A stretch of DNA of 43,842 bases from a virus, in IMG/VR virus record IMGVR_UViG_3300033571_025403, positions 1 through 43,842 of that record; one strand, 5' to 3'. How positions within the stretch are numbered: position 1 is the stretch's first letter; each line of letters starts with the position of its first letter. Below the pieces are notes generated by a model. It was not told where the DNA came from. It made no database searches and worked only from the letters and a program-made list of their open reading frames with translations. Shown in pieces: positions 7,487 to 23,249 of the stretch. Made by a program: the position numbers and the translations under genes.

Positions 7487-7704
7487 CAGGCTTCATCCCA
7501 CATTTGTTTCCAGAGAACCTCTGGCGTGTGACCCTTGGCTGCCTGCGTCATGTTGTCTGTCGCAGCCGCAGCCGTAAACTTCCAACCCTGTGCGAGACAC
7601 AGCTCGAGGAGTTGTTTGCACTCGGCTGTTGTGGCACGAAATCCGAGGATAGCCAACCGTCCTCGCAGAAAAGCAACCTTTTTGTCCAAAGAAAGCTGTG
7701 TCAT
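7486..7704 (-). CDS. hypothetical protein between terminase and portal, 72 aa
   Basis: A small gene that overlaps both neighbours. Its ATG at 7704 overlaps the large terminase stop as ATGA, and its stop overlaps the portal start as TGATG. A longer form could begin at 7713, but the ATGA arrangement favours 7704. The protein has a helical, Cys/Leu-rich middle (TTAECKQLLELCLAQGWKF). Small proteins at this position are frequent in podophages, and none of the motifs here gives a function. Confidence 0.65.
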   Translation of the reverse strand: MTQLSLDKKVAFLRGRLAILGFRATTAECKQLLELCLAQGWKFTAAAATDNMTQAAKGHTPEVLWKQMWDEA

Positions 7705-8993
7705 ACAATCCACCTGTTGTCATACTTAAGTTGTTTCATCGCGATGTTGTCACTTCGTGGCAGCATCAGGGCCAAAGTCCTAAAGGCATCCGCACCGTGT
7801 GAGGCCCAGTCGTGCAACGGGCGGTCGGAAAAGACCTTCTTCTTCGCGTCCCATTCCCGGCGATAGTGCCGCAGGGCCTCAATTCCGAGCTGGCAGCGAA
7901 GATTGTCAAAGTTACACCGAGGAATCAACTGCCTGGCCGCTTGAATGCCCTCTTCCACCTTTGTGCGGGGAAGGACTGACGCCGTAATTCCGAGATCGCG
8001 GAGAACCTCCGTGCGACTTCGCGCGGTGGTTACCTCCCGCTGCTCAACGTCGTGCGGGAAGTAGTGGGATGCATAAATGTAATTCCTGCGAAAAATTTCC
8101 CCGGCGTACCAGTCGAGGCCCACACCCGCATTTTCCACATAGTCAAAAATGTTGACCTGCTCCCCGATGATCTGGGCGAACCAAATCGCGGTAGAATCAC
8201 CCACTCCCAAATCCCAGGCGGTGTAGACGCGCTTACCTCTTTCATGAGGCACCGGCCCAACTCGTCCCCCCTTGGCGGCTTCTTCGATGAGCTGGCCAAA
8301 ATACGAACCCACAATCGGAGCCGCCCACGAACACTCATACTCCGCGGCGTAGGCCTCCGGACTCATTTGGCGGCGGGCGTCCTCAAGTTCCTTCTCGGGG
8401 ACAATCTTCGTCGCGCTCGCCGGGTGAATGGCTACATACCAATCCTTCGCAAACTCAGGCTGAAGGCTGCGTTCGTACATGTCATAGAAATGGTTCCTTC
8501 CCCGTACTGTTCCAATGAAGATAGCATATCCGAGGCGGTCGCTGAGAGCTGGTCGCACAACATCATTCCACGCGCGGGGGTCCATATCTCCAAACTCATC
8601 CAGTACGGCCCCATCGAGGTAGATACCTCGCATTCTATTGTAGTTGTCTGCACCGTAGAGTCGAATCCGGCCACCATTTGGAAAATCGACTCTAAGTTCT
8701 CCTTCGTGGAAAGAGATTCCTGGGATGTCACGCGTGAACTCCTGAAGGTAATTCCAAGCGACGTCTTTGGCCTGGGAGTAGGTGGGTGCGATGTAGGCAA
8801 AGCGCGGATTCGGCTTTTCGCAGGTGAGGGCTCCTTTTATCAGTTCATTAATACACGCCACGGTCTTCCCGCACCTTCGATGCGCGACAACAAGTGCCCA
8901 CCGTTTGTTTCTTTGGTGGAGGGGGAGAAAAATTTCGCGGGGTGCATAAGCGATGCGGATCTCTTGCGTTCCGTAAGGCGTCTGCTTGCTCAT
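7701..8993 (-). CDS. terL: terminase large subunit (packaging ATPase/nuclease), 430 aa
   Basis: The DNA-packaging motor. The N-terminal ATPase has a Walker A-like motif AHRRCGKT at residues 37-44 and a Walker B motif GAVLDEF with D132-E133. The C-terminal RNase H-like nuclease shows AWDLGVGDS after residue 240 and a HDWASHGADAFR end motif. At 430 residues it is typical for the podophage/lambda-like terminase group. It starts within the small terminase stop (ATGA overlap), as expected for coupled terminase subunits. The nuclease cuts concatemeric DNA and the ATPase drives it through the portal encoded nearby. Confidence 0.95.
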   Translation of the reverse strand: MSKQTPYGTQEIRIAYAPREIFLPLHQRNKRWALVVAHRRCGKTVACINELIKGALTCEKPNPRFAYIAPTYSQAKDVAWNYLQEFTRDIPGISFHEGELRVDFPNGGRIRLYGADNYNRMRGIYLDGAVLDEFGDMDPRAWNDVVRPALSDRLGYAIFIGTVRGRNHFYDMYERSLQPEFAKDWYVAIHPASATKIVPEKELEDARRQMSPEAYAAEYECSWAAPIVGSYFGQLIEEAAKGGRVGPVPHERGKRVYTAWDLGVGDSTAIWFAQIIGEQVNIFDYVENAGVGLDWYAGEIFRRNYIYASHYFPHDVEQREVTTARSRTEVLRDLGITASVLPRTKVEEGIQAARQLIPRCNFDNLRCQLGIEALRHYRREWDAKKKVFSDRPLHDWASHGADAFRTLALMLPRSDNIAMKQLKYDNRWIV

Positions 8994-9391
8994 CCTTCGT
9001 TCTTTTCCTTGAGGGCCTCTGAACCGTGCATCCCGTGTTCCACGGGAGCCTGGTGTTCAATAACTTTTGTATCTTCTGGCCTGCCTGCCGCAGCGGGGCC
9101 TGACCAACTCACAACGAGGCGCTGGATGGGTTCCGCATCCCCGGCCACCTCCTGCACTGCGACTTTTCCGTCGATCCTGTTCGCGATCTCGTTGATCGCG
9201 GTGTAGTCCCCGTTCAGCGCGTCGTGGACCACAATCCTCGCAATGCGTTCGAGCGCGGTGCCTGTGGGCCCGTCGGCGCGTGCAAGCTCGAGGCGGAGGG
9301 CATCGCGCCATTGCTTGTTGGATGGACCCGTTCCGGGTTTGTTCCGAAGGGTTTTGGATTTTTTCACGGGGACTCTCTGTTCGAAATGCAC
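8990..9391 (-). CDS. putative terminase small subunit, 133 aa
   Basis: The first gene of the leftward late operon, directly upstream of the large terminase and overlapping it by four bases. The N-terminus is basic (VPVKKSKTLRNK). It is followed by a helical region (KQWRDALRLELARA, ERIARIVVHDALNGD, INEIANRIDGK) that resembles small terminases, which recognise the packaging site. ATG 9391 lacks a clear ribosome site; GTG 9367 is an alternative. The position is persuasive but the sequence is not diagnostic. Confidence 0.75.
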   Translation of the reverse strand: MHFEQRVPVKKSKTLRNKPGTGPSNKQWRDALRLELARADGPTGTALERIARIVVHDALNGDYTAINEIANRIDGKVAVQEVAGDAEPIQRLVVSWSGPAAAGRPEDTKVIEHQAPVEHGMHGSEALKEKNEG

Positions 9392-9552: not shown

Positions 9553-9804
9553 TGCGACAAAATGCCGCAGGGGTACCCGGGGGGTCTGGGTGCGACAATT
9601 TGACCCACCCCCCTTGACACGCCCCGGCGTGCGGGTGCGACACAATGTCGCATTGACAACCCCGCTGCGGTACCCTGATACCACATTGTCCAGGTGCGTC
9701 AATTTGTCGCATTGACTTGCGGTACGTGGGGTCGGTAACACGTTGATGCGACAAAGTGCCACATCCCGGCAAAACCGCCCAAAATCATGCGGCAACGTGC
9801 CACA
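9553..9804. repeat. array of 17-bp imperfect palindromes TGCGRCA-N3-TGYCRCA
   Basis: Six copies begin at 9553, 9591, 9636, 9695, 9747 and 9788. The copy at 9636-9652 is a perfect inverted repeat, TGCGACA-CAA-TGTCGCA. The copy at 9591 has a degenerate right arm (TGACCCA). A related longer-spaced version, TGCGGTA-N6-TACCACA, lies at 9666-9685. Start-to-start spacings are 38, 45, 59, 52 and 41 bp. TTGAC words adjoin several copies, and C-rich CCCCCCTTGACAC is repeated at about 9608-9619 and 9805-9817. The array fills the gap between the divergent operons, so it may be a multi-site operator or an iteron-type origin. Confidence 0.75.
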
Positions 9805-9826: not shown

Positions 9827-9854
9827 TTGATCGAGTCCGGGAACCGTGTATAAT
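9827..9854 (+). promoter_or_regulatory. sigma-70-like promoter for the rightward early operon
   Basis: TTGATC at 9827-9832 and TATAAT at 9849-9854 are separated by 16 bases, close to the bacterial housekeeping consensus. An exact TTGACA lies 16 bases further upstream (9811-9816) but is too far from the -10 box to pair with it. It lies immediately after the last palindrome of the array and faces the early genes. Transcription would start near 9861. Confidence 0.65.
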
Positions 9855-9861
9855 CCTAGCC

Positions 9862-9900
9862 ATGATGATGATTAATAAAACGGAGTCGATGATGATGTAA
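9862..9900 (+). other. 12-codon leader ORF MMMINKTESMMM
   Basis: Directly after the predicted early promoter, three ATG codons, then INKTES, then three ATG codons and TAA form a short symmetric reading frame. No ribosome site is visible, and a start this close to the predicted transcription start would be nearly leaderless. It may be chance from the repeated GATGATG words, or a leader peptide. Confidence 0.2.
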
Positions 9901-10065
9901 CACATACCAGACCTAGCATACATAGCGGCTAGGCGCAGCCCCGGAAAACACGACACCACTCAGGTCAACGGGCGCAAAAATAACAGGGTGGCGGCAGTCG
10001 CCGGGGCTTTCGCCTCGCCGAATAATGGGTGGATCTTTCGATCAAACCACACTGCCGAAAGTTGG

Positions 10066-10112
10066 GTGTTGCCCGAAGATCACAACACAAAATTGTAATC
10101 CTCGGGCAACAC
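10066..10112 (+). promoter_or_regulatory. leader hairpin ahead of the first early gene
   Basis: GTGTTGCCCGA at 10066-10076 is the exact inverse complement of TCGGGCAACAC at 10102-10112. Inside these, GAT/ATC and ACAA/TTGT can extend the stem. It ends 14 bases before the AAAGGAG ribosome site of the next gene. It could control translation or stabilise the early mRNA. No U-tract follows, so it is not a classic terminator. Confidence 0.6.
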
Positions 10113-10140
10113 ACACAAACCGCCCAAAGGAGCAACACCA

Positions 10141-10679
10141 TGCCTAAGAAAACACCAGTTGAAATGGTCGAACAGGGTTTCATCACGGAAAACCACTGGG
10201 ACGACACATTGCTCGGCCGCAACACATGGTTGTGGAACGAACACTTCGGCATCGAAGGCACGACAATCCGTGCCGAGAAGATCGACTTCGTGAAATACCT
10301 CATCACACGGGGCATTAACGAGTCGGTGCAAAATTCCTACCAAGCCCACGCAAAGGGCACCGGACTTGGCCCGCGCGTCGAGGCCTTCAAACGCCGCGTC
10401 GCGGACCTCATGGCCGGGCGCTACGAACGTGGCAAGTCCCGCACCGAGCGCGAAGTGGATGTCGACGATATGACCCTCAAAATGGTCATATTCGAGAGCC
10501 TCGTGACACAATACAAGATCACGAAGAAAGAGGCCGCAGCCCTCATCAAGTCCGTCGATGTCGCGGCCGCACAGGTCGCACAGCGCACCGGACTCGACGC
10601 GGAAGACATCCTCGACGATTGGAAGCAGGCCGCAACCGATCGACTCGCGGAATTGGACGAGCAACTACCCGGCGTGTGA
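10141..10679 (+). CDS. first early-operon protein, unknown function, 179 aa
   Basis: ATG 10141 follows a strong AAAGGAG ribosome site, so I prefer it to the upstream non-ATG start at 10029. The protein starts MPKKTPVEMVEQ and is hydrophilic. Its middle is basic and Arg-rich (FKRRVADLMAGRYERGKSR), followed by helical stretches and an acidic C-terminus. As the first gene after the early promoter it is a candidate for host takeover or control of early transcription. I recognise no family, so the function is unknown. Confidence 0.8.
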
Positions 10680-12497: not shown

Positions 12498-12777
12498 GTG
12501 GGATTTTTCCATTGTTTCTAATTTTCCCTAGTTTGCTCTAGTTTGATCTGATTGCCTAGTGTGGCGAAAACCACGGGGGAGCGGTGGGGGTGTGTCCCCC
12601 GTGCCACACCCCGGGAGGGGGAGGGTAGTAGTATTAAAAAAAAAAAAAAAAAAATAATTAATCTAACATTACTCCCACACCCCCTGTCTCCCTCCCGCCA
12701 CACCCCCCACCCACCACCCCCACTTTCCAATCACTAGCCAATCAGATCAAACTAGATCAAATCAGATAAAATCCCAC
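12498..12777. repeat. 280-bp nested inverted repeat with 19-A tract
   Basis: The arms 12537-12561 and 12732-12756 are 25 bp long and inverse complements with one mismatch. Outer 10-bp arms GTGGGATTTT (12498-12507) and AAAATCCCAC (12768-12777) also pair. Inside, a G-rich left part faces a C-rich right part and can pair imperfectly. Near the centre are 19 consecutive A residues at 12636-12654. No convincing gene lies here. It could be a replication origin, a structured RNA, or a small mobile element with terminal inverted repeats. Confidence 0.75.
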
Positions 12778-21770: not shown

Positions 21771-21803
21771 TCTTCTGGCCTTTGTGCCCATTTGGAGATT
21801 TTT

Positions 21804-23249
21804 GTGGAAAACATCCCCCTCACCGCCATAAAAGTTCACGATGATGACAGACAGCGCAAAACCCTCACCGGAATTGAAGACCTTATGTCTTCCATCGAAA
21901 GGATTGGCCTTCTCAACCCGCTCGTCCTTGATGCTGAAAATAATCTCATTGCTGGAAGAAGAAGGTTTGAAGCCCTCAAGCGTTTGGGTAGAACTTTTGC
22001 GCCAGTACGACGATTCAGCGATCTCGACGTTAGCACTCGACAGCTCATCGAATTGGATGAGAATCTCCGCCGAGTTGACCTGCCTTGGCAGGAGACGGCA
22101 CTTGCAGTCTATAAAATACACACCCTCAAGGCGGCTGATCGCCCCACCTGGGAGCAACGTGATACTGCTGACTTTACCGGGCTTTCTTCCTCCTACATCT
22201 CAAACGCCGTTGCTGTGGGGGCGGCACTCGCACGCGGTGATGAAAAGCTTGCCGCATGTGGAACTCTCGGTTCGGCGGCAGATCTCCTTCGACGCCGCCG
22301 TCAGCTCGCCTTAGACGCGGCGCTGGGGGAGGAGTTCGGGGAGGGAACAGAAGAGGGGGATGATCCCTTCGAGCATCTTGCGCCGGAAAAGGAACTTCCG
22401 AAGGAAGACCCGCTGCCGGAGCCAGAGGATGAAGATGGGGACAAGGGTGGTATATACAATTTCCCCCAAAAACCCGCCGCAGCTTCTTCTCCCTCTCCCG
22501 CCCCACAACCTTCCTCTCCTCCCGCTCGCCCCGTTTACCCCTACCGCATCATCTCTGCGGATTTCATCCAGCTGCTCGAATCCCAGAGCTTCAAACAGAA
22601 GTTCAATCTTCTCCACTGTGACTTCCCTTACGGCATCAACTTTGACCGTTCGGCGCAGGGTGGAAGTGAGAGCCACGCTGCGAGCTATGAGGACTCACCG
22701 GAGACCTTCTGGGCCCTCACAGACGCCCTCCTCAAGCACCAAGAGAGCTTTGTGGCCGACAGCGCGCATATGATCTTTTGGTATTCCATGAACTACCACA
22801 GAAAGCTCGTCCATGACCTCGAAGCCGCCGGCTGGTTCGTCGTTCCAACCCCCCTCATCTGGTACAAGTCCGACGGTGCAGGAATTGCATCTGACTATCG
22901 CCGACGACCAAAGCACATCTACGAGACGGCTCTCTTTTGCTCTCGCGGAGACAGACCAATCCTTCAGCTTAGAAATGACGTATATGCATGCGGCCTGGCC
23001 CGACACGTTGAGGCCCATCCGTCTGCGAAACCTCAAGAGATGCTTGAATACTTTCTCTCCCTGGTTGTCACCGAGTATTCCAATGTTCTCGATCCTACCG
23101 CTGGTTCTGGCACTGCCATTCGGGCTGCAGCGGCCCTTGGTGCTAAGTCTGCGATCGGACTCGAACTTAATCCAACTGTCGCAGCCACCTCAGCTGCAAA
23201 ATTAAACCTTTTCCTCGAAAGGAAAGCACAGAATGAGTCTGACTCTTGA
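21804..23249 (+). CDS. ParB-domain/DNA methyltransferase fusion, 481 aa
   Basis: GTG 21804 has GGAG six bases upstream and is preferred over TTG 21792. Residues 1-110 are a ParB N-terminal domain: ENNLIAGRRRFEALKRL (GRRR at 51-54) and DENLRRVDLPWQE. Residues about 175-245 are an acidic, then Pro/Ser/Ala-rich linker. The rest is a DNA methyltransferase with HCDFPYGINF (motif IV, D273-F-P-Y276) and LDPTAGSGTAIRAA (motif I, about 429-441) after it, an order typical of beta-type amino-methyltransferases. It probably modifies adenine or cytosine in phage or host DNA. Confidence 0.85.
   Translation: MENIPLTAIKVHDDDRQRKTLTGIEDLMSSIERIGLLNPLVLDAENNLIAGRRRFEALKRLGRTFAPVRRFSDLDVSTRQLIELDENLRRVDLPWQETALAVYKIHTLKAADRPTWEQRDTADFTGLSSSYISNAVAVGAALARGDEKLAACGTLGSAADLLRRRRQLALDAALGEEFGEGTEEGDDPFEHLAPEKELPKEDPLPEPEDEDGDKGGIYNFPQKPAAASSPSPAPQPSSPPARPVYPYRIISADFIQLLESQSFKQKFNLLHCDFPYGINFDRSAQGGSESHAASYEDSPETFWALTDALLKHQESFVADSAHMIFWYSMNYHRKLVHDLEAAGWFVVPTPLIWYKSDGAGIASDYRRRPKHIYETALFCSRGDRPILQLRNDVYACGLARHVEAHPSAKPQEMLEYFLSLVVTEYSNVLDPTAGSGTAIRAAAALGAKSAIGLELNPTVAATSAAKLNLFLERKAQNESDS

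Follow-up and report, generated by a model that had tools for sequence, protein, structure and literature searches.

A palindrome array between divergent gene units of a virus genome, a probable operator cluster for a host RegA-family redox response regulator

Response regulators of the RegA family (RegA/PrrA/RoxR/ActR/RegR) are partnered by the quinone-sensing kinase RegB/PrrB/RoxS. The helix-turn-helix is identical in RegA, PrrA and RegR, and the sites reported for these proteins look degenerate and dissimilar (PMC5506826). The motifs quoted there are SSGNVRDNHYSNCSS for R. capsulatus RegA, YSCGGC(5)GWCRMA for PrrA and GNGRCRTTNNGNCGC for RegR; binding of the A. ferrooxidans RegA is mostly located upstream of the -35 element (PMC5506826). 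Among phages, Synechococcus phage S-PM2d contains Pho boxes for the host PhoBR system, documented by gel shift and expression evidence (PMC10976474). A partial literature search retrieved no report of RegA-type sites in phages.

The DNA analysed here, termed the window, comprises the 43.8 kb of an IMG/VR virus record (IMGVR_UViG_3300033571_025403). A non-coding region of about 750 bp separates a leftward terminase and structural unit from a rightward early unit. Within 252 bp of this region lie six copies of the palindrome TGCGACA-N3-TGTCGCA, with zero to three mismatches to the consensus TGCGACANNNTGTCGCA. Site 1 (9553-9569, TGCGACAAAATGCCGCA) is RegA-type with one mismatch and is followed by the conserved word GGGGTACCCGGGGG. 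Site 2 (9591-9607, TGCGACAATTTGACCCA) has two mismatches and an off-consensus arm, TGACCCA. Site 3 (9636-9652, TGCGACACAATGTCGCA) is a perfect palindrome with no mismatch and adjoins TTGACA (9653-9658), and site 4 (9695-9711, TGCGTCAATTTGTCGCA) has one mismatch and adjoins TTGACT (9712-9717). Site 5 (9747-9763, TGCGACAAAGTGCCACA) has two mismatches, and the promoter-proximal site 6 (9788-9804, TGCGGCAACGTGCCACA) is the most degenerate copy with three. All six copies listed in the preliminary description were recovered, including the perfect one at 9636, and its spacing of 38-59 bp agrees with the measured start-to-start distances of 38, 45, 59, 52 and 41 bp. The array is real: 1000 dinucleotide shuffles of the control region yielded a mean of 0.033 and a maximum of two sites with at most three mismatches, against the six observed, and the suspicion that shuffled sequence might give similar arrays was not borne out. 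For the whole window and both strands, 12 matches with at most two mismatches compare with a shuffle mean of 2.2 and a maximum of 10. Elsewhere in the window there is no place with two or fewer mismatches to the consensus, and a single unrelated place with three (33867). GANTC methylation sites are not enriched in the window (179 versus about 171).

Two close relatives, L009 (TerL 90%) and L006 (TerL 86%), have this array at the corresponding position. In the alignment of the three phages, the palindromes form conserved islands with variable spacing within a diverged surrounding region. The preliminary description had proposed a comparison with related phages for conserved sites with changed spacers; both relatives display this pattern, and the array is missing from neither. 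A de novo palindrome-family search recovered TGCGAC-N5-GTCGCA in L006 and L009. The arm TGACCCA of site 2 is identical in the three phages and hence is not regarded as decay. A variant with a six-base centre, described earlier as part of the array, is indeed present (9666-9685, TGCGGTACCCTGATACCACA). Since it aligns with better sites in the relatives, having one mismatch in L009 and four in L006, it probably represents a seventh site, eroded or weak. More distant relatives differ: the de novo search upstream of TerL revealed no comparable palindromic array in 27 of them, 13 searched over their whole length had no sites with the exception of one marginal match, and the named relatives HTVC027P, HTVC023P, 023Pt_psg01, DSL-LC04, Venkman and ctXG6705 have no array. 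DNA searches of INPHARED phages gave no convincing match, whether the query was the control region or a 30-base motif.

The first gene of the leftward unit encodes a putative small terminase (8990-9391, minus strand), assigned by position and without a Pfam family above the cut-off. It is followed by the large terminase (Terminase_6N; 7701-8993, minus strand) and, by position, further packaging and structural genes. No consensus promoter was recognised for this unit. The rightward unit starts with a gene for a protein of 179 aa (10140-10679, plus strand) without a Pfam family, which has a 67% identical orthologue in L009/L205, and continues with PD-(D/E)XK nuclease, AAA, PolA-like and uracil-DNA-glycosylase-like genes, the latter two named by inspection. 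Its predicted sigma70 promoter (9827-9854, plus strand) reads TTGATC-N16-TATAAT with the -10 hexamer at 9849-9854, which is kept as TAAGAT in L006 and as TATGAT in L009. The distance from the centre of site 6 to the -10 is 53 bp in the window phage, 53 bp in L009 and 52 bp in L006. No good -10 accompanies the TTGAC words beside sites 3 and 4. A stable hairpin (GTGTTGCCCGA...TCGGGCAACAC; -26.3 kcal/mol, z=-5.4) is located in the rightward leader (10061-10112, plus strand), and its 5' 16 bases, GTTGGGTGTTGCCCGA, are invariant in the three phages; in L006 a small inserted ORF separates them from the matching arm TCGGGCAACAC. A tiny ORF, ATGATGATGATTAATAAAACGGAGTCGATGATGATGTAA (MMMINKTESMMM), occupies 9862-9900 just after the rightward -10, and L009 has a similar start region, ATGGTGATGG. 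Further along the window, a near-perfect intergenic 24-bp inverted repeat (12538-12561, CTAGTTTGATCTGATTGCCTAGTG; 12732-12755, CACTAGCCAATCAGATCAAACTAG) encloses about 170 bp, including a run of almost 20 A residues, and is possibly an origin, a terminator pair or the remnant of a mobile element. Positions 21792-23249 encode a ParB_N domain fused to an N6/N4 DNA methylase.

The same site occurs in many other phages. The 20-base pattern TGCGACANNNTGTCGCATTGAC, the form of the consensus with TTGAC attached, was scanned in viral contigs and matched at least 119 stretches, whereas the control patterns, reversed or with an N4 spacer, matched none. Most of the carriers are unrelated to the window phage. 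The largest set comprises 83 loci with related TerL of the HTVC023P/HTVC027P kind, in which the sites lie between TerL and the early side; other carriers include 165-kb and 94-kb phages. Exact viral sites are mostly located outside ORFs of at least 100 aa (192 of 219, with 27 inside), and such ORFs cover 60% of the DNA. The site recurs at sigma70 promoters of these unrelated phages: in 13 of 65 distinct TTGAC contexts a -10-like hexamer follows at spacer 17, against zero to five at other spacings except for nine at spacer 7, a count that we tentatively attribute to the recurrent word ACAAGATRTAGT. The GC content of the site-bearing loci ranges from 0.31 to 0.61, hence their hosts probably differ. 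Four loci (L094, L155, L176 and L188) have tandem site arrays with a 35-41-bp unit of the TGCGACATCTTGTCGCATTGACACAAGATATAGTGGG type beside TerL. The contig of L148 is an inverted duplication of itself with the sites mirrored about its centre, probably an assembly artefact.

According to the preliminary description, one protein may switch both units, and the RHH (17747), winged-helix (16135) and ParB-domain (21792) proteins of the phage were proposed as binders. An operator array between the early and late units, probably with one reader, is retained from this proposal, whereas the search for its reader led away from the named proteins and, through the chromosomal sites described below, towards a host RegA/PrrA/RoxR. 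Orthologues of the three proteins occur at most in the two close relatives. When the three were used in HMM searches, no counterpart was found in unrelated phages carrying the identical site, apart from one weak winged-helix match (E=0.006) in one such phage. A ParB/parS system was rejected, as the ParB_N and DNA methylase protein has no counterpart in unrelated motif-bearing phages. BLAST, clustering and HMMs detected no DNA-binding protein common to the motif-bearing phages, which share only polymerase, uracil-DNA-glycosylase-like, structural and other non-binding proteins. A RegA-like ORF was looked for in the site-bearing phages and none was found; a cognate binder shared among the carriers, as expected of a phage repressor-operator system, was likewise not found. 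As no DNA-binding protein is common to these phages, a host factor was suspected.

In bacterial genomes the scan revealed 45 stretches with the palindrome, in Nitrosomonas, Pandoraea, Porticoccus, Rhodocyclales and others; these sites were sought as exact palindromes and their consensus is thus preselected. They abut the -35 in the same geometry, with a -10 spacer of 17-18, and inspection of translations identified TonB/ExbBD, NosL, SCO1, NosZ and PepSY genes nearby. In L343 and L344 the palindrome is located about 0.1 kb upstream of regB in regB-regA. The kinases adjacent to sites carry the RegB quinone motif GGxxNPF. For the adjacent regulator, there is a full-length match to a response regulator structure (3rqi) and a match to the DNA-binding domain of PrrA (1umq). 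The chromosomal sites had suggested a copper regulon alone, a reading that was dropped when regB-regA was seen beside them. The identical palindrome lies just upstream of regB-regA (RegBA/PrrBA/RoxSR) in at least 32 of 395 Burkholderiales and Pseudomonadales genomes. Both orders together have at least 33 placements within 2.5 kb of regA versus about 0.2 expected: at least 16 among 200 Burkholderiales genomes (in at least 15 genomes, one with two; about 0.14 expected) and 17 among 195 Pseudomonadales genomes (about 0.09 expected), the expected counts being based on approximate genome sizes and site totals. The usual distance between site and regA, 1.25-1.6 kb, corresponds to one regB length. 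In Burkholderiales, RegA (E<=1e-30) is present in 44 of 46 genomes with the site versus 45 of 154 without (p=7e-17), and in Pseudomonadales in 49 of 52 versus 78 of 143 (p=5e-8); these p-values are inflated by the relatedness of the genomes, and the positional effect recurs across the two orders. A RegA homologue is present in each of the nine named genomes with a site that were checked, one of which, a single-cell genome of the Pelagibacteraceae, includes a contig with the motif. In SAR11, RegBA is among the few two-component systems. Pandoraea loci (e.g. L210 and L217) contain a directly adjoining tandem pair of RegA-type sites that is kept in about 20 species. In operons of the Nitrosomonas type (L277-L280, L334, L340-L342 and L347) the site is located upstream of AHTRL...HGC proteins, TlpA-like thioredoxins and small lipoproteins, with TonB/ExbBD carrying a site elsewhere, which suggests a RegA-linked copper-supply regulon.

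The RegA, PrrA and RegR motifs and the palindrome have a common frame, GCGNC-N5-GNCGC. The 15-bp core GCGACANNNTGTCGC fits the RegA motif, with site 3 departing at one central base, and is one base off the PrrA motif; relative to the RegR box, the central T positions are off for most copies. A DriD/WYL regulator and RptR were considered as readers and rejected, as their motifs do not fit. We regard the array as probably an operator cluster for a host RegA-family redox response regulator. In the window phage, a RegA encoded by its host would be the candidate reader. Host RegA dimers would bind the 17-bp palindromes between the leftward packaging and structural unit and the rightward early unit. 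From the promoter-proximal site, centred at about -65 and kept at a constant spacing from the early sigma70 promoter downstream of it, RegA would help RNA polymerase, and the further sites would give a cooperative, graded occupancy across the divergent region and may restrain the leftward promoter or pass control on to it. The start or balance of the phage programme would thus be coupled to the respiratory state of the host, or the phage may simply use an abundant, strongly conserved host DNA-binding protein. Several facts count against RegA as the reader: the palindromes are near-perfect whereas the literature sites are degenerate, about 27 TerL relatives and isolated relatives have no array, the TTGAC words of the window lack a good -10, and many chromosomal sites are found at copper and TonB genes and not at classic respiratory genes.

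Two alternatives concern the identity of the reader, and we consider both improbable to a similar degree. A phage-encoded repressor or activator, be it the RHH, winged-helix or ParB-domain protein or the product of the first rightward gene, may bind the array, its likeness to RegA sites being convergence. Operator arrays by divergent promoters are usual for phage-encoded regulators, a 7-base half-site can converge, and L193, which is the L006 phage, has conserved the winged-helix and RHH genes. However, neither BLAST nor HMM searches detected a DNA-binding protein common to the unrelated phages that carry the identical 20-base element, and the chromosomal sites agree with the phage sites in half-site, in spacing and in abutting the -35. 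Alternatively, a different host protein that controls both regBA and the copper and TonB genes may read the palindrome, with RegA only as one of its targets. The many chromosomal sites at NosL, SCO1, NosZ, TonB/ExbBD and PepSY genes, unusual for RegA, would be explained in this way, but the published RegA, PrrA and RegR motifs fit, the operon's own response regulator is the simplest reader, and the sites track the presence of RegA in two orders.

Other alternatives concern the role of the array. The same host RegA sites acting as repressor operators or as a sponge is a less likely proposition than activation by RegA, though a better one than a change of reader. As operators, high-affinity sites would keep the early or the late promoter off until RegA is displaced; as a sponge, the array would titrate RegA away from host promoters. 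Six to eight tandem sites exceed the need of one activator, and conservation extends to the off-consensus sites, a trait of graded repressor arrays. Against repression, both viral and chromosomal sites lie directly beside, not over, a consensus -35 with a 17-bp spacer, a position in line with the A. ferrooxidans RegA (PMC5506826), and a single genome copy of six sites would be a weak sponge. That the array may be an origin, as suggested in the preliminary description, is very improbable. Its repeats are clustered and intergenic like iterons, and in a few viral families (L086-L204 loci, e.g. L087, L171, L179 and L198) the density of DnaA boxes (TTATCCACA) is about sixfold higher close to the sites (within 200 bp) than elsewhere. 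The window, however, has no such DnaA box, the nearest relaxed boxes being at 8131 and 21803, and no AT-rich unwinding region is seen in the array. Single copies of the same site are located at sigma70 promoters in other phages and in chromosomes, so that an origin role is not needed.

A RegA-family operator array would thus name a likely host reader for a motif common to many unrelated aquatic phages. If this is true, phage transcription responds to the respiratory state of the host via RegBA, and a host redox sensor helps to time infection. More tentatively, and with somewhat less than even confidence, we propose that many unrelated proteobacterial phages (94- to 165-kb phages, HTVC023P-like phages and podophages of the window type) have independently put their early/late switch under the host RegB/RegA quinone-redox sensor, gating lytic development by respiratory state. 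The sites of this regulator family have been described as degenerate and dissimilar (PMC5506826); the consensus would also supply a clean palindrome for them, usable in searching for phages and regulons that the family controls.

Among known systems, the proteobacterial RegA/PrrA/RegR/RoxR sites share with the array the inverted repeat GCGNC-N5-GNCGC and a location upstream of the -35, and the palindrome is found upstream of regBA; in contrast, the array is in a phage, dense and composed of near-perfect palindromes. The DriD sites of Caulobacter, bound by a WYL-domain activator (PMC12340889), have a similar CGAC...GTCG core in sigma70 promoters, but read ATACGAC-N7-GTCGTAT and lie over the -35, whereas the array has a spacer of 5, the half-site TGCGAC and abuts the -35. 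Operator arrays of the lambda type resemble it in their 17-bp palindromes, graded departures from consensus and location between divergent units; unlike them, the present array has no adjacent or common phage-encoded repressor, and the same operator is found in unrelated phages and chromosomes. The closest precedent is provided by the cyanophage Pho boxes, which likewise equip phage promoters with sites for a host two-component response regulator. Those sites belong to PhoB, phosphate and cyanobacteria and stand individually, mostly at metabolic and replication genes, whereas the array is of the RegA, redox type, presumably proteobacterial, tandem in the central early/late region and recurrent in unrelated phages. 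Phage sites for a host response regulator are therefore known (PMC10976474); new, as far as the partial literature search shows, are the arrangement of the sites as an array, the proposed regulator and the recurrence in phages that are not related.
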